This document shows, in pieces, positions 24,380 to 31,503 of a stretch of DNA of 64,000 bases. The notes under the pieces are model-generated. The model searched no databases, had not been told where the DNA came from, and saw nothing but the letters and a program-made list of their open reading frames with translations. The position numbers and the translations under genes are program-made. Every line of letters begins with the position of its first letter. Position 1 is the first letter of the stretch. Origin of the DNA: Bacteroidales bacterium. GTDB taxonomy: Bacteria > Bacteroidota > Bacteroidia > Bacteroidales > Muribaculaceae. The stretch lies in assembly GCA_015061085.1 (NCBI GenBank), contig SUXG01000003.1:1-64000 (forward strand), in the 5' to 3' direction.

Positions 24380-24456
24380 CTATTTGCGCTAAGACAATAT
24401 CACCTTATATTATATCTATCTATACTATAGCTACTATAAATACTATCCCGCAAATC

Positions 24457-24515
24457 TACTGCTTGAAGAGCTCTTTGATTGAGCCAATTGAGCCGAGCAC
24501 GCCGGATACATCCAA
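24457..24515 (-). pseudogene. Orphan copy of the 3' end of the SPFH gene
   Basis: On the minus strand this reads DVSGVLGSIGSIKELFKQ-stop, matching the last 16 residues (SGVLGSIGSIKELFKQ-stop) of the SPFH gene at 30538. Over about 47 bases only five differ, all at third codon positions, and the stop is TAG instead of TAA. An in-frame TAG lies a few codons upstream, so only the tail is present. It sits directly after tatC, so two direct copies of this tail bracket the peptide/Tat cassette. It is best read as the trace of an insertion at, or recombination with, the 3' end of the SPFH gene. Confidence 0.7.
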
Positions 24516-24532
24516 GCACGCCTATCATCTTC

Positions 24533-25324
24533 CTAATCAGCTTGCACTCGCTTCGCTATGAGTACCCCAAGCAAATACAACAGATACATCGGTAATGTCA
24601 CAATAACCAAAGTAAATGCATCCGGAGGCGTAATAATCGCCGCTATAACGAGTATCACGATAAACGCATGTTTCTTATAACGTGCCAACATATCACCACT
24701 CACCAAGCCCATCTTAGCCAAGAAGAAACAGATAACCGGCAATTGAAACACAACGCCCATCATAAACGACAACGTTACAAATGTCGAAATATAAGACGAC
24801 AAGGTGATTGTATTTTCAATCGATGAATCTACTTGATAGTTTGCTAAAAACTGAAACGATATAGGAAAAAGCAAAAAATAGCTCAACAAAATACCTATAA
24901 TAAACAGGCCATAGATCGATAGCGCTATTTTGACTGAATGTTTACGCTCATCATCGTATAGAGCCGGCAATATAAACCTAAACAACTCATACACCAAAAA
25001 TGGCGAACCCATCAGCAGTCCTAAATAAAGCGATGTCGAAATGTGAGTCATAAACTGAGCTGACAAATCCGTACTGATAAGCTTAATGTCATACTCCGGA
25101 AATCTAAAATTCCAACCAAGTTCTTTAGCCAACCACTCTATAAATTCAAATGTCACAAAGTGGTTATTCTGTGGAGCAAGCAATATATCGAAAGTAATAT
25201 CCTTAAAGCAGAATATTACGACGGCAAACGTTGCGATTACCCCTATAACTCTGAAGAGCATCTTGCGTAAAACCTCAAGATGCCCTCCAAATGTCATCAT
25301 TCCTTCTTGTGTGGAATCACTCAT
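24533..25324 (-). CDS. tatC: Sec-independent protein translocase TatC
   Basis: The twin-arginine signal receptor of the Tat pathway, a six-helix inner-membrane protein (263 residues). N-terminal MTFGGHLEVLRKMLFRV matches the TatC start motif (HL.ELR.R), and the first periplasmic loop, the SPFLVYELFRFILPALYDDERK segment and PPDAFTLVIVTLPMYLLY follow the family pattern. Its start overlaps the end of tatA by four bases. It is the last gene of the minus-strand cassette that encodes three precursors with twin-arginine leaders, its likely cargo. Confidence 0.96.
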   Translation of the reverse strand: MSDSTQEGMMTFGGHLEVLRKMLFRVIGVIATFAVVIFCFKDITFDILLAPQNNHFVTFEFIEWLAKELGWNFRFPEYDIKLISTDLSAQFMTHISTSLYLGLLMGSPFLVYELFRFILPALYDDERKHSVKIALSIYGLFIIGILLSYFLLFPISFQFLANYQVDSSIENTITLSSYISTFVTLSFMMGVVFQLPVICFFLAKMGLVSGDMLARYKKHAFIVILVIAAIITPPDAFTLVIVTLPMYLLYLLGVLIAKRVQAD

Positions 25325-25578
25325 TTGCTTTCTTTATTAGACTCCGCATCGATTTTTACATCCTTTGCAGAATCAAGTTCCTCTGTTTTTTCAGCCACCG
25401 ACTGCTCTTCATCTTTCTTCTCTTCCGGCAGGCCTTCTGCCATTCCTTGCTTAAAGCTTCTGACACCCTGTCCCATGCTACGCATAAGTTCCGGTATCTT
25501 CTTTCCACCAAAGAGCAACAACACTGCGCCACCGATAATGAGCAACTCGGTAGTGCCTATCATACATAATATACTCAT
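25321..25578 (-). CDS. tatA: Sec-independent protein translocase TatA
   Basis: An 85-residue protein with a short N-terminal membrane helix (TTELLIIGGAVLLLFGGKKIPEL), the FGGKKIPEL hinge and an amphipathic helix (MRSMGQGVRSFKQGM). A long acidic/basic charged tail follows. This is the pore-forming component; no TatB is present, so the system is a two-component TatAC. It lies 12 bases after the small modification-system gene and overlaps tatC by four bases. Confidence 0.96.
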   Translation of the reverse strand: MSILCMIGTTELLIIGGAVLLLFGGKKIPELMRSMGQGVRSFKQGMAEGLPEEKKDEEQSVAEKTEELDSAKDVKIDAESNKESK

Positions 25579-25590
25579 ATCTCTTCCGTT

Positions 25591-25866
25591 TTAGTCATTA
25601 GTCACCAAAAATATCTCACATGTCTCAAAATTGATTTCCCAATGACCATTTTCAGCAGATTCCCACTGGTAATTACGGGCCATCGTGTCCCACCAATTCT
25701 GGAACTTTGCACCTGTTTCGCCCATATCGGCAACAAGTTTTTCATACAAGTCTTGATTGTCGGCTGTCAAGATTTTAGCCAACTCATTCAGACCGTTTCT
25801 TCTCTCAAAAAGGCTTTGAATATCATTCTTCTCTACCTCTGTCACTTTTCCTACTAATTTTTTCAT
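25591..25866 (-). CDS. CXXX-repeat peptide modification system protein (small accessory)
   Basis: A 91-residue soluble acidic protein, mostly helical, with a C-terminal segment WWDTMARNYQW ... HWEINFETCEIFLVTND. It has no signal peptide and one Cys. Its size and setting match the small protein that NCBIfam lists with CXXX-repeat radical SAM peptide systems, whose biochemical role is not known to me. A precursor-binding or chaperone role is my inference. It starts one base after the stop of precursor C and ends 12 bases before tatA, so it belongs to the same operon. Confidence 0.65.
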   Translation of the reverse strand: MKKLVGKVTEVEKNDIQSLFERRNGLNELAKILTADNQDLYEKLVADMGETGAKFQNWWDTMARNYQWESAENGHWEINFETCEIFLVTND

Positions 25867-25867
25867 A

Positions 25868-26221
25868 CTATCTTTTAAACTTTATTGTATCACTTCCAAC
25901 TGATGATGCTTCACAAGTAGCATGACATGAACCATGACAACTTCCTTTGCAAATATCCGAGCACTCATCACATTTACCGGAATATCTACACGTTCCTGCA
26001 CAACCTGAGCATCCGTCTACGCAAAGCCCCTTACACGTTTTAATACAAGTAAAACTACATGTACCCGTACAAGATTGTGAACAGGATGCACTACAGTAAC
26101 CTTCACACGATGTGGGGATATTTGCAATAGTCTTAATTGGATTAGACATAGCCGACAACAGTATCACTGGTAATACTGTTGCCACCCTCTTGAAAAATCT
26201 TCTTCTATCAAATTTACCCAT
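25868..26221 (-). CDS. Cys-Xaa-Xaa-Xaa repeat precursor peptide C, Tat leader
   Basis: A 117-residue precursor. The leader MGKFDRRRFFKRVATVLPVILLSAM has a twin-arginine motif (DRRRFFK) and a short hydrophobic stretch. The core has 17 Cys: eight successive C-x-x-x units from CEGY to CVDG, a C-x-x slip (CSG), CAGT, the longer CRYSGK, CDE, then CSDI CKGS CHGS CHAT C and a Cys-free tail ending DTIKFKR. The ORF track starts at 26242, but the ATG at 26221, one base after the lipoprotein stop, puts the Tat motif at the correct N-terminal distance. It lies apart from precursors A and B and is the most irregular. Confidence 0.8.
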   Translation of the reverse strand: MGKFDRRRFFKRVATVLPVILLSAMSNPIKTIANIPTSCEGYCSASCSQSCTGTCSFTCIKTCKGLCVDGCSGCAGTCRYSGKCDECSDICKGSCHGSCHATCEASSVGSDTIKFKR

Positions 26222-26222
26222 G

Positions 26223-26705
26223 TTACCAATACATATTTCCAAATTTATCTACATACCAATATCCATAACCATTACAAATATTACACAAACGGATATGACC
26301 AGACCCTCCGCATGAGGAGCATGCTCCATCGTAACACCATATGCAATCTTTTAATGTATAGCCATATCCATCACACGCATAACATGATTCATCATTATCA
26401 CATACAGGACAATCTGACTTTATATCTCCATATCCTCCACAATGATAGCAGTCACCAGATCCATGGCACACAGGGCAGTCAACATATCCGCTACCACCAC
26501 ATGAATGACAGCTTACATATTTAAGACTACCCGTTCCTCCGCAGTATTCACATGTACCAACCTGACCCCCAAAGTCATTCATTATGTAGCCTATTCCGTT
26601 CTCACAATAGGGACAATCCATTCCGTTTGATGAATAAGATGGTCCATCATCATTACATGAAACAAGAAAGAATAATACAGCGAAAAACAATAACAATTTT
26701 TTCAT
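26223..26705 (-). CDS. Lipoprotein of DnaJ-type CxxCxGxG zinc-finger repeats
   Basis: A 160-residue predicted lipoprotein: signal KKLLLFFAVLFFLVSC with lipobox LVSC, then about nine CxxC knuckles, many in the DnaJ cysteine-rich form CxxCxGxG (CEYCGGTG, CHSCGGSG, CPVCHGSG, CSSCGGSG, CNICNGYG). There is no J domain. DnaJ zinc centres bind unfolded polypeptide and have thiol chemistry, so a periplasmic-side role handling the Cys-rich peptides or metal is my inference. The start is the ATG at 26705 whose ATGA overlaps the upstream gene stop, implying translational coupling. I do not recall this as a standard component of the system. Confidence 0.75.
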   Translation of the reverse strand: MKKLLLFFAVLFFLVSCNDDGPSYSSNGMDCPYCENGIGYIMNDFGGQVGTCEYCGGTGSLKYVSCHSCGGSGYVDCPVCHGSGDCYHCGGYGDIKSDCPVCDNDESCYACDGYGYTLKDCIWCYDGACSSCGGSGHIRLCNICNGYGYWYVDKFGNMYW

Positions 26706-27667
26706 TGCCATTCTTCTTTATTTTCAAATGGGTCTAAATATGCGATCTCTTTTATTTCAATCTCAGGCATAAACACGCCATGTTTGCGAATATTCTGCAA
26801 GAGATTGCGACTTACGTTTCGCTCTGTGTGAGCCACTATACACTGTTCATGGCTTGGGGTATTAACTTCAAGCGTCATCTTGCGATTAAGCCAAACGCAA
26901 CGCTTACATTGGTTGGCATCACAATTGCGACATATCGGAGCATGCGATAACTTGTAAAGCTGTGGATTTCTGACATTTAATCCCGATTTCAAATCTCCAA
27001 TGCTCTGCGCCTTATTCTCAATTGTTGTTGCAGTTTCTGCTTGATAGAACGCAGGACAAACATAGAACTTACCATCAGATACCAACGTGATATTCTCATC
27101 TCCGGCATTACAATTGTTCATTGCAGAGAGCATCATACGATCGGTAAGCAAATTGAATTGCACTGCATGACATTTCGTATATTCAGATTCAACCACTTCC
27201 GATAAATCAGACAGCAATGCTTGATATGTTTGTAAATCATCATCTGAGAACGTCTCCACATCGGTAATCACCACGTTCAATCGCTCCAATTTCTCTAAGA
27301 ATGGTATCAAACACTTATAGTTAGCAAACAATTCATCCTTCTGAACTCGGAATACAACAGCCGATGCGCCCTGATATTCCTCCGGATTTTCATCAGTCAA
27401 TCCATCGACAACCACGACATCAGCATCCTTTGTCAACGATGCAGGCACTATATTGGCATGGTCTATCGAATGAATTGCGTCCTTGTATTCTTGTGGCAAT
27501 TCATAATCTGGATAGACAAACTGAATCATTAGATTTTGCTTCATTGCAAAGAGAATACCAGCCTGCAAATCCTCCAATGCAATTAATTTACGCTCAGTCT
27601 TCTGATTTTCATAATGACAATATGACACGCTCGTATCATCTAATAAAACTACAAGATATTTCAGCAT
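26702..27667 (-). CDS. CXXX-repeat peptide maturase, SPASM-like partner without radical SAM motif
   Basis: A 321-residue protein with one Cys in its first 160 residues and no CxxxCxxC, so it does not carry the SAM-cleaving cluster. Its C-terminal third has a SPASM-like cysteine arrangement: CNAGDENITLVSDGKFYVCPAFY, then CRNCDANQCKRCVW and a final C in HEQCIVAHTERN. It matches the family called CXXX repeat peptide maturase. The role is probably to bind auxiliary iron-sulfur clusters or the precursor alongside the neighbouring radical SAM enzyme. It begins four bases after that gene and overlaps the next by ATGA. The N-terminal half has a degenerate barrel look (VVITDVETFSDDD). Confidence 0.75.
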   Translation of the reverse strand: MLKYLVVLLDDTSVSYCHYENQKTERKLIALEDLQAGILFAMKQNLMIQFVYPDYELPQEYKDAIHSIDHANIVPASLTKDADVVVVDGLTDENPEEYQGASAVVFRVQKDELFANYKCLIPFLEKLERLNVVITDVETFSDDDLQTYQALLSDLSEVVESEYTKCHAVQFNLLTDRMMLSAMNNCNAGDENITLVSDGKFYVCPAFYQAETATTIENKAQSIGDLKSGLNVRNPQLYKLSHAPICRNCDANQCKRCVWLNRKMTLEVNTPSHEQCIVAHTERNVSRNLLQNIRKHGVFMPEIEIKEIAYLDPFENKEEWQ

Positions 27668-27671
27668 AGCA

Positions 27672-28919
27672 TCAACATATTACATCGTTTGACTTCTTTT
27701 TATTGCTCTCAAATGCTTCTCGTTCACCTTCAAGTTCGAGTTTGCGATAGAGTTTGTTCCAATAGTAGTTATTGGCACGAACACGAGCCTTGTGCATCTT
27801 GCATATAGCAGTTGAGCGTTGATAGATGGTCGGAGTCTCAGCCGCATCATAGTTTTCACCTTGACACCAAGCGCAACCACTACCTACCTCGCAATCTATA
27901 CACTCTTGTGTTGACTGAGTGCAACGATCAAGTGTCAAGAATGGGCGAAGCTTATTCTTATCAATACCATCACGCACATTACCGATAATCCAAGCCTTTT
28001 TATCACGCAAAGAGTATTGTGCAAAACGAGTACAAGGATAGAAATTACCTGCTGCATCTACCGACAACATTTTACCTGCACCACACCAATTCTGATTTTC
28101 AAGAACACAATCGAGAGGTTTACCCATGTTTTCAGTAAAGAACGAGCAAGCGTTATTTTCGTAAAGTTTGCCGTCAATGATAGCATCAGCAAGTTGCATC
28201 AACTGCTCCTCAAATTTCACATCATCACCTTCTGTCCACACATCCTCAAAAACGCAATTGATATTAACCTCATGGATACCAAGATCAAACAGGTGCAATA
28301 CGCTTTCCTTTATATATGGTATATCCGCACTACTGATTGTTACCTTGGTACCTGCATTTGGGAATTGACTTAACCACAATGGAATATTTCGTACAACATC
28401 TTTGTAAGACCCTTTCTCGTCCTCAGGCGCCGGTGCTATACCGGCTTCCATCTCAGGCGTCTTATAGATGCGATTGAGGTCGTGTTTTCGTTCTGTGCCA
28501 TCGATTGTAATACCAATAGACAGATGATCACGATTTTTCGCTATAAATCGTTGAACCTTATCCTCATGGTAATTAATGCCATTTGTAGAGAACGAAAAAC
28601 GATAGGAATTAAACCAATGGTGATTGCGTCTAAAAAGCTCCACCTTAATATAGTCACATATCTTATCAATAAGGTCTATTTCAAGGAATGGCTCTCCACC
28701 GATAAAATCCCATATTACAGACTCCTCACGAAAGTCCTCCTCATGGTCGAGAATGTAGTCAATTGCTTGCTTTGCTACATTCCACGACATTCGCTCCTTG
28801 ATGTTTTTACCCACCAAGTAACAATACTTGCAAGCAAGCTGGCAATCCTTAGTAACAATAAACGTAATATTTTTGGCTATTCCGGATTGCCAAGCTTCAC
28901 TATTTGTTTTAATACTCAT
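27672..28919 (-). CDS. Radical SAM/SPASM peptide maturase, CXXX-repeat target family
   Basis: A 415-residue radical SAM enzyme. The SAM-binding cluster motif is CQLACKYCY (about residues 30-38). The GGEP-like motif (IGGEPFLEIDLI) and a ligand-binding barrel follow. A SPASM domain in the last third carries CGAGKMLSVDAAGNFYPC, CTQSTQECIDCEVGSGCAWC and CKMH, giving enough Cys for two auxiliary clusters. It likely crosslinks or epimerises residues in the three C-x-x-x precursors of the operon; the reaction is not known. The ORF starts at a GTG (28928), but the ATG at 28919 is preferred. Gene order with a SPASM-like partner supports the CXXX-repeat family assignment. Confidence 0.87.
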   Translation of the reverse strand: MSIKTNSEAWQSGIAKNITFIVTKDCQLACKYCYLVGKNIKERMSWNVAKQAIDYILDHEEDFREESVIWDFIGGEPFLEIDLIDKICDYIKVELFRRNHHWFNSYRFSFSTNGINYHEDKVQRFIAKNRDHLSIGITIDGTERKHDLNRIYKTPEMEAGIAPAPEDEKGSYKDVVRNIPLWLSQFPNAGTKVTISSADIPYIKESVLHLFDLGIHEVNINCVFEDVWTEGDDVKFEEQLMQLADAIIDGKLYENNACSFFTENMGKPLDCVLENQNWCGAGKMLSVDAAGNFYPCTRFAQYSLRDKKAWIIGNVRDGIDKNKLRPFLTLDRCTQSTQECIDCEVGSGCAWCQGENYDAAETPTIYQRSTAICKMHKARVRANNYYWNKLYRKLELEGEREAFESNKKKSNDVIC

Positions 28920-29009: not shown

Positions 29010-29336
29010 TTATAAATATGCACTACTTCCGCATCCTGTGTAACAAGTTCCGTCACAACCACCTCCGCAACTTCTTTCACAGCCACCAAGACAACTTCTA
29101 GCACATCCACCAGAACAGCTATAATCACATCCTCCACAACCGTTCTTACATCCACCGTAACATGAACTATCACACCCCCACTTGCAACCATAGTCACAAT
29201 AAGATGTTGCTTTACTTTCATGAGATTTTGCCACAAACGGCAATTGAGTCAATGCAATAGCACCAAAAATTGGAAGAGCCTTTTTGACTGCACTTTTGAA
29301 GAATTCCCTTCTACTTTGTATTTTATTGTCTTTCAT
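29010..29336 (-). CDS. Cys-Xaa-Xaa-Xaa repeat precursor peptide B, Tat leader
   Basis: A 108-residue precursor. The leader begins MKDNKIQSRREFFKSAVKK, with a classic twin-arginine motif (SRREFFK), then the hydrophobic ALPIFGAIALTQLPF. The core has 15 Cys in almost perfect four-residue period: CDYG CKWG CDSS CYGG CKNG, a single C-x-x slip (CGG), then CDYS CSGG CARS CLGG CERS CGGG CDGT CYTG C, ending GSSAYL. Gly and Ser dominate the x positions. The first 26 residues closely match precursor A, showing recent duplication with core divergence. It ends 91 bases before the radical SAM gene. Confidence 0.87.
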   Translation of the reverse strand: MKDNKIQSRREFFKSAVKKALPIFGAIALTQLPFVAKSHESKATSYCDYGCKWGCDSSCYGGCKNGCGGCDYSCSGGCARSCLGGCERSCGGGCDGTCYTGCGSSAYL

Positions 29337-29363: not shown

Positions 29364-29669
29364 TTAATATGATGATCCGCCGGTACATTTATTTTGACAT
29401 GTATTTTTGCATGTACTTCTACATGATGACTTGCATCCCGAGCTACATTCATATTTACATGCGCCTTTACATTCTCCATAGCATGAACCTTTACATGAAG
29501 CCATACATGTTCCATGGCACCCATTACAACCCATCTCGACTTTCGATGCTGTAATATCAAGAGGTAGATTTGCTAATGCGATAACGCCAAGGATTGGGAG
29601 CGCTTTTTTAGCCGCACTTTTGAAGAATTCGCGTCTTGACTGAACTTCTTCCTTTTTGTTTTCTTTCAT
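29364..29669 (-). CDS. Cys-Xaa-Xaa-Xaa repeat precursor peptide A, Tat leader
   Basis: A 101-residue precursor, first gene of the cassette. Leader MKENKKEEVQSRREFFKSAA carries a twin-arginine motif, followed by the hydrophobic ALPILGVIALANLPL. The core has 13 Cys: after an initial CNG, eleven consecutive C-x-x-x units (CHGT CMAS CKGS CYGE CKGA CKYE CSSG CKSS CRST CKNT CQNK), a final C, then TGGSSY. Lys, Ser and Gly fill the x positions, so the product is basic. The ORF track extends upstream to 29786 through the RNA terminator; the ATG at 29669 is the right start, 20 bases after a GGGGA-loop hairpin. Confidence 0.87.
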   Translation of the reverse strand: MKENKKEEVQSRREFFKSAAKKALPILGVIALANLPLDITASKVEMGCNGCHGTCMASCKGSCYGECKGACKYECSSGCKSSCRSTCKNTCQNKCTGGSSY

Positions 29670-30504: not shown

Positions 30505-30537
30505 GAAGCCTAAACGTATTATGAAAAAACTAAAAAT

Positions 30538-31503
30538 TTACTGTTTGAAAAGCTCTTTGATTGAGCCGATTGAGCCAAGCACACCAGAGGCTTCGTATGG
30601 CACATAGACAGTCTTGTTGTCTTGACCTGAAGTCATCTCTTTGAGCGTCTCGATGTATTTCATTGCGAGCATGTAGGTCGCAGGGTCAGTCTGCGATTCC
30701 TTGATGGCTTCAGCGACGCGACGTATTGCTTCTGCTTCAGCCTCTGCCACAAGCACCTTAGCGCGTGATTCACCTTCGGCTCTTAAGATTTCAGCTTGCT
30801 TGATAGCTTCTGCCTGGTTGATTTGTGATTGTTTTTCACCTTCAGAACGCAGAATCAAAGATTTCTTTTCACCCTCTGCGTTAAGGATTTCAGCACGACG
30901 ATTACGCTCTGCCTGCATCTGCTTTTCCATAGCTACGCGCACACTTTCCGGAGGCGTAATATCTTGAAGTTCAACGCGATTAACCTTTACACCCCACTTG
31001 TTGGTAGCTTCGTCAAGGATAGCTTGTAACTTAGAGTTGATGGTGTCGCGTGATGTGAGCGTTTCATCGAGTTCGAGTTCACCGATTACGTTACGAAGCG
31101 ATGTTTGCGTCAACTTTTCGATAGCGTTAGGGAGGTTTTCGATTTCATAGACCGACTTTTTAGGATCGACGATTTGGAAGTATATCAAAGCGTTGATTTC
31201 GGTGGTCACGTTATCCTTGGTGATCACTTGCTGAGAAGGGAAGTCATAGACTTGCTCACGAAGGTCGATTACAGAAGTCGATACGATACGCGCATAGTTG
31301 CCCACCATACTGCGAGTATAGACCATCTTAGGTTTATCGATAAACGGCCAAATGATATTCAATCCAGGAGGCAGAACAGCATGGAAGCGACCGAGACGCT
31401 CGATGACGCGTGTTTCCGACTGTGGCACCACCTTTACTCCGGCAGATACCAATACAATCACTATCAAAGCCAAAAGACCTAAAAAAATCATTGAACTTGT
31501 CAT
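30538..31503 (-). CDS. SPFH/Band 7 domain protein (stomatin-like, QmcA type)
   Basis: A membrane-anchored scaffold protein of the stomatin/prohibitin/flotillin group, implicated in lipid-domain organisation and membrane protease control. One N-terminal helix (IFLGLLALIVIVLVSAGV) is followed by the SPFH domain (VPQSETRVIERLGRFHAVLPPGLNII) and a long Ala/Glu-rich coiled coil (RRAEILNAEGEKKSLILRSEGEKQSQINQAEA). The 321 residues include the conserved C-terminus SGVLGSIGSIKELFKQ. The gene follows an NfeD-family gene by 13 bases; NfeD/SPFH pairs are a well-known functional couple. The last 16 codons recur at 24457. Confidence 0.93.
   Translation of the reverse strand: MTSSMIFLGLLALIVIVLVSAGVKVVPQSETRVIERLGRFHAVLPPGLNIIWPFIDKPKMVYTRSMVGNYARIVSTSVIDLREQVYDFPSQQVITKDNVTTEINALIYFQIVDPKKSVYEIENLPNAIEKLTQTSLRNVIGELELDETLTSRDTINSKLQAILDEATNKWGVKVNRVELQDITPPESVRVAMEKQMQAERNRRAEILNAEGEKKSLILRSEGEKQSQINQAEAIKQAEILRAEGESRAKVLVAEAEAEAIRRVAEAIKESQTDPATYMLAMKYIETLKEMTSGQDNKTVYVPYEASGVLGSIGSIKELFKQ

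Follow-up and report, generated by a model that had tools for sequence, protein, structure and literature searches.

Peptides with CXXX repeats and the enzymes that mature them are described by the family models TIGR04115, TIGR04116, TIGR04117 and TIGR04119. Repeated CxxCxGxG motifs are characteristic of the central zinc domain of DnaJ (PF00684), which has four of them, and a single pair occurs in the anti-TRAP protein RtpA (NF058604). DnaJ-type zinc centres can bind unfolded chains and have been credited with thiol-disulfide activity. Among the papers covered, a literature search returned nothing specific on CXXX repeats, on the cassette reported here or on exported CxxCxGxG lipoproteins, and no described function of CXXX-repeat peptides. 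The locus analysed here, which combines a CXXX operon with a CxxC-rich lipoprotein gene (LIPO), was found in a window (the whole stretch of DNA analysed, 64,000 nucleotides) from a gut or rumen bacterium.

All genes of the operon are encoded on the reverse strand, in the transcript order PEPa, PEPb, radical SAM gene, TIGR04119 gene, LIPO, PEPc, TIGR04116 gene, TatA and TatC. The core enzymes, which lie beside three CxxxC peptides, all score above the cut-offs of their models: the TIGR04115 radical SAM peptide maturase of the CXXX-repeat target family (27672..28919; 634 bits, cut-off 350), the TIGR04119 CXXX repeat peptide maturase (26702..27667; 225 bits, cut-off 150) and the TIGR04116 CXXX repeat peptide modification system protein (25591..25866; 95.5 bits, cut-off 50). 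PEPa (29364..29669) and PEPb (29010..29336) share the Tat signal QSRREFFK and score 45 and 41 bits with TIGR04117, while PEPc (25868..26221), a c-type peptide with 13 CxxxC motifs and the Tat signal DRRRFFKR, scores 37.7 bits and starts 1 nt past the LIPO stop. None of the three reaches the TIGR04117 cut-off of 50 bits, and they were assigned by their CxxxC repeats, Tat signals and operon context rather than by that model. The operon ends with its own TatA (25321..25578; TIGR01411, 60.4 bits) and TatC (24533..25324; TIGR00945, 160.7 bits; PF00902, 202 bits). No relatives of its radical SAM enzyme were found on viral contigs.

The whole operon is bracketed by a 55-bp direct repeat (87%) at 24452-24506 and 30534-30588 of the window. 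The second copy is the 3' end of an SPFH/stomatin-like gene (30538-31503) and the first an apparent relic just past TatC, which suggests that the end of the SPFH gene served as the insertion site of the operon. When an empty site of the whole operon was sought, SPFH and GH13 lay on separate contigs in relatives, among the matches examined. A 188-bp direct repeat (96%) surrounds the operon of another surveyed locus (L074).

LIPO (26223..26705, reverse strand) encodes a protein of 160 aa. Its N-terminus reads as the Sec lipoprotein signal MKKLLLFFAVLFFLVS, followed by C17NDD; an n-region, a hydrophobic stretch and the lipobox MKKLLLFFAVLFFLVSC before the cysteine can be read directly, and lipidation is predicted from them. 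The lipobox L-V-S-C17 with the N-D-D that follows (26646..26666, reverse strand) precedes a repeat region of residues 31-144 (26274..26615, reverse strand), in which ten CxxC motifs start at residues 31, 52, 66, 77, 86, 99, 108, 121, 129 and 141. All 20 cysteines after the lipobox fall inside a CxxC, and seven of the ten motifs have the exact form CxxC-x-G-x-G. In 20,000 composition-preserving shuffles, the mean was 2.6 CxxC (maximum 9) and 0.09 CxxCxGxG (maximum 2). The top matches are DnaJ_CXXCXGXG (PF00684) in Pfam, at 24.6 bits against a gathering score of 32.7; anti-TRAP RtpA (NF058604) in NCBIfam, at 23.3 bits over residues 51-75 against a cut-off of 65; and, among PDB sequences, the zinc domain of human DnaJA3 (2ctt, E 5.5e-4). 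By these matches and its motifs, LIPO resembles the CxxC zinc-ribbon hairpins of DnaJ and anti-TRAP yet is a member of neither family. A J domain with an HPD motif is absent from its Pfam and NCBIfam matches, the 160 aa consisting of the signal and the CxxC region only. An AlphaFold2 model built from 8 sequences was poor (pLDDT 45) and was not carried into a fold search.

The LIPO start codon lies inside the TIGR04119 stop (ATGA overlap), and a second possible start (MAMKK) is found 6 nt upstream. The ORF is considered a real gene because a homologue (E 1.5e-10) occupies the same slot in another genome (locus L174). An earlier note on this DNA had described an exported lipoprotein with about nine CxxC motifs, several of them exact CxxCxGxG, no J domain, and ATGA coupling to the maturase gene. 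This description agrees with the present findings except for the count, which is ten. Its label "zinc knuckle" is replaced, since that term properly denotes CCHC motifs and LIPO is of the DnaJ/anti-TRAP zinc-ribbon type. LIPO as a substrate of the radical SAM enzyme was also considered and judged unlikely, its signal being of the Sec lipoprotein and not the Tat type and its cysteines having CxxC and not CxxxC spacing. LIPO is predicted to leave by the Sec and lipoprotein pathway, beside peptides with Tat signals and their own Tat genes.

Recurrence was surveyed in 146 distinct CXXX loci, of which 80 were obtained by scanning GTDB genomes with the radical SAM alignment (345 relatives found), the remainder coming from the order and the window's own family. 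The count covered exported proteins that have two or more CxxCxGxG motifs. Fourteen such proteins, with 6 to 12 CxxC each, were found in 11 of the 146 loci (the window included), in or beside the operon and all on the operon strand; in 7 of these 11 loci, again including the window, they occupy the slot between the TIGR04119 and TIGR04116 genes. None was found in approximately 1.1 Mb of DNA flanking the same loci. The 11 loci observed compare with about 0.2-0.9 expected by chance (P < 1e-8), an expectation that assumes 0.25-1 such genes per Mb genome-wide, these rates being rough estimates. Such a protein is lacking from 135 loci, so the core system can do without it. On a quick FastTree phylogeny of the radical SAM enzymes the trait changes at least 9 times and has therefore been gained and lost repeatedly. 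In the cultured type strain Leyella stercorea DSM 18206 (L094), the slot holds a CxxCxGxG lipoprotein and no peptide.

Comparison of closely related loci showed that the lipoprotein moves together with a peptide. A locus of Lentimicrobiaceae SIG104 (L095) has the window's exact order, from the radical SAM and TIGR04119 genes through lipoprotein and PEPc to TIGR04116, TatA and TatC, and its PEPc is 49% identical to that of the window, including the tail YSGKCD-CSDICKGSCHGSC...DTI-FK. Its close relative L090 is 96.6% identical over the radical SAM and TIGR04119 genes up to the TIGR04119 stop and 95% identical from the TIGR04116 start, and lacks about 0.7 kb of L095, namely the lipoprotein and the peptide together. 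L174 and L176, which are 88% and 95% identical on either side of the slot, differ by about 1.3 kb; here the L174 slot holds two such lipoproteins and one peptide that is frame-broken in the assembly. In both pairs, lipoprotein and c-type peptide have been gained or lost jointly between the TIGR04119 and TIGR04116 genes, and no other slot difference among 33 close locus pairs adds recognisable genes. As the pairs differ by exactly the lipoprotein or lipoproteins plus the peptide, the lipoprotein and third peptide travel as one unit, and because both genes come and go together the lipoprotein is probably the dedicated partner of the cassette peptide. A slot peptide was counted in 4 of 11 loci with an exported CxxCxGxG protein and in 7 of 126 without one (Fisher p = 0.006; the frame-broken L174 peptide taken as absent). 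A sign test over independent pairs drawn from the radical SAM tree had too few informative pairs and did not reach significance. The earlier note had placed LIPO in the CXXX system and proposed a search beside other CXXX loci; the exported CxxCxGxG proteins of 10 other loci, the recurrence in the same slot and the movement with a CXXX peptide as one cassette bear this out.

Elsewhere the slot is filled differently. In four loci it contains one soluble CXXX peptide plus a CXXX peptide with a Tat signal and a lipobox (L050, 6917-7393; L056, 3385-3705; L066, 11199-11558; L087, 12469-12792), the lipobox cysteine standing in the context C-x-K-(D/E)-(D/E). From these signals the four are probably Tat-exported, surface-anchored lipopeptides, and LIPO seems to stand in for the membrane-anchored (lipidated) member of such a pair. 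The surface signal reported for Capnocytophaga has the K-(D/E)2 form, and that of SusG in Bacteroides is C-S-D-D (PMC6222051). LIPO carries the acidic residues at +3 and +4 after the cysteine that define a surface lipoprotein export signal (LES), in the form C-N-D-D, a start shared by its L174 homologue and one that predicts surface display.

Exported CxxCxGxG proteins also occur outside CXXX operons. PF00684 was searched against 55 CXXX-positive and 60 CXXX-negative genomes of the family, and 31 match sites were inspected. Secreted or lipidated CxxCxGxG proteins are encoded elsewhere in CXXX-positive genomes with no shared neighbour among the inspected sites, and most such proteins of the family lie away from CXXX loci. 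The earlier note had named presence mainly in unrelated contexts as a finding that would refute its reading, and this applies in part. The class is therefore general, and LIPO a member of it recruited to the CXXX system. All-motif lipoproteins rich in CxxCxGxG, with 7-14 CxxC and away from any CXXX peptide, were found in other genomes of the family (L254, 5797-6396; L255, 5459-6094; L262, 5338-5850) and apparently represent an undescribed Bacteroidales class. Within the window's genus, extra exported CxxCxGxG proteins are present in 6 of 13 CXXX-positive and 0 of 20 CXXX-negative genomes. Their use as a marker of CXXX genomes was dropped, small CxxCxGxG frames being about as common in a second negative set from other genera, as judged from open-frame lengths in the match table.

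The window's own genome encodes two more small exported CxxCxGxG proteins off the CXXX operon (L264, 5496-5780 on contig C3; L265, 5608-5838 on contig C45). Pairs of cytoplasmic CxxCxGxG proteins of 63-72 aa, about 1.6-2 kb apart, were seen in several genomes (among them L250, 6031-7857, and L270, 5060-7209) and possibly reside in a mobile element such as a phage. CXXX operons often contain variable exported proteins, such as secreted proteins of about 150 aa and SH3-like domains (L038, L040, L041, L062, L080, L115 and others), encoded either between the peptide genes and that of the radical SAM enzyme or inside the slot. With other exported proteins present in many CXXX operons, LIPO represents one choice among a variable set.

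The reading preferred here, with a probability of roughly 0.42, is that LIPO is a cassette-encoded, Sec-exported, surface-anchored zinc-ribbon partner, for anchoring or display, of a single Tat-exported CXXX peptide, PEPc. LIPO and PEPc would be an exchangeable cassette of two genes, placed between those for TIGR04119 and TIGR04116. In the cytoplasm, the core (TIGR04115, TIGR04119 and TIGR04116) presumably introduces crosslinks into the Cys-repeat peptides, which would then be exported in folded form by the operon-encoded TatA-TatC. LIPO, as a lipoprotein, would take the separate Sec route, and from its C-N-D-D start it is predicted to be flipped to the outer surface. Consecutive CxxC pairs may each bind one zinc in short hairpins, as in DnaJ and anti-TRAP, giving up to five sites, and LIPO would then be a rigid scaffold of repeats on which mature PEPc is held or displayed at the cell surface. 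The sequences show the gene order, the motif content, the recurring slot, the joint gain and loss, and the lipidated CXXX peptide in the lipoprotein's position in other cassettes; zinc binding, surface location, physical interaction with PEPc and the role in anchoring or display are inferred. The variable motif number (6 to 12 CxxC) is more in keeping with a repeat scaffold than with an enzyme.

The main rival, which we consider improbable, is that LIPO is a dedicated immunity or self-protection lipoprotein that neutralises or sequesters PEPc at the producer's envelope, the peptide being active against other bacteria. Joint gain and loss of peptide and lipoprotein is the classical toxin-immunity pattern, CXXX operons differ greatly in their peptides and also vary in their small exported proteins, and presence in only some loci would be accounted for; against this, no antibacterial activity of CXXX peptides is known, PEPa and PEPb are encoded in the same operon without such a partner, and the corresponding gene in other cassettes is a lipidated CXXX peptide, which is unexpected for an immunity gene. 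Immunity is ranked second because it fits the joint gain and loss but would not explain why the same position can hold a lipidated CXXX peptide. It is similarly unlikely that the slot merely accepts hitch-hiking exported genes, so that LIPO would belong to the general Bacteroidales class of exported CxxCxGxG proteins and its function would have nothing to do with the peptides. The occurrence of such proteins elsewhere in CXXX-positive genomes, the similar frequency of small frames in CXXX-negative genomes of other genera and the unrelated exported proteins of many CXXX operons would all agree with this, but the density of exported CxxCxGxG proteins in CXXX operons is far over background, as counted above, and joint gain and loss with the peptide was seen twice.

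Less likely still is a role as a thiol-disulfide helper or a zinc donor or chaperone for the exported Cys-rich peptide, as suggested by the earlier note, which also named a receptor for the exported peptides. PEPc is very Cys-rich, its gene is linked to LIPO, and the activities credited to DnaJ-type zinc centres would suit such a role; however, export through Tat implies folding or crosslinking of the peptide before it leaves the cytoplasm, no single redox-type CxxC is conserved, the number of motifs is free to vary, and PEPa and PEPb are equally Cys-rich and need no such helper. An anchor or display partner is preferred over a folding helper because LIPO sits where the membrane-anchored member sits elsewhere. 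Extending this partner reading to CXXX operons at large is tentative and, in our estimate, rather doubtful: they may be modular surface-display systems in which a fixed core matures and Tat-exports peptides, and cassettes add a peptide with a membrane-anchored Cys-rich partner (a lipidated CXXX peptide or a zinc-ribbon lipoprotein), the pair assembling outside the cell.

A candidate partner is now at hand for one CXXX-repeat peptide, and the close loci with and without the cassette, together with the cultured L094 strain, make the role of the lipoprotein in peptide location, metal content and activity testable. Beyond this operon, LIPO draws attention to exported zinc-ribbon proteins of the DnaJ type, a class in Bacteroidales that is largely undescribed. 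In comparison with known systems, LIPO shares CxxCxGxG repeats and weak profile and PDB similarity with the central zinc domain of DnaJ (PF00684). It differs from DnaJ in having no J domain or substrate-binding C-domains, and from the zinc domain in having ten motifs instead of four, at tighter spacing, and in being, by its signal, lipidated and exported. With anti-TRAP RtpA (NF058604) it shares a CxxC-x10-CxxC pair with CxxCxGxG, but anti-TRAP is a cytoplasmic inhibitor of TRAP with one motif pair, whereas LIPO is longer and is an exported lipoprotein built of repeats. Like surface lipoproteins of the SusG type it has Asp at +3 and +4 (C-N-D-D compared with C-S-D-D; PMC6222051); unlike SusG it is not a glycan enzyme, and its surface exposure is a prediction. 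The window matches the described CXXX-repeat maturation system (TIGR04115/04116/04117/04119) in its core enzymes, which exceed the cut-offs, and in its peptides, which resemble TIGR04117, and it adds to the described models a cassette of lipoprotein and third peptide that is part of none of them.
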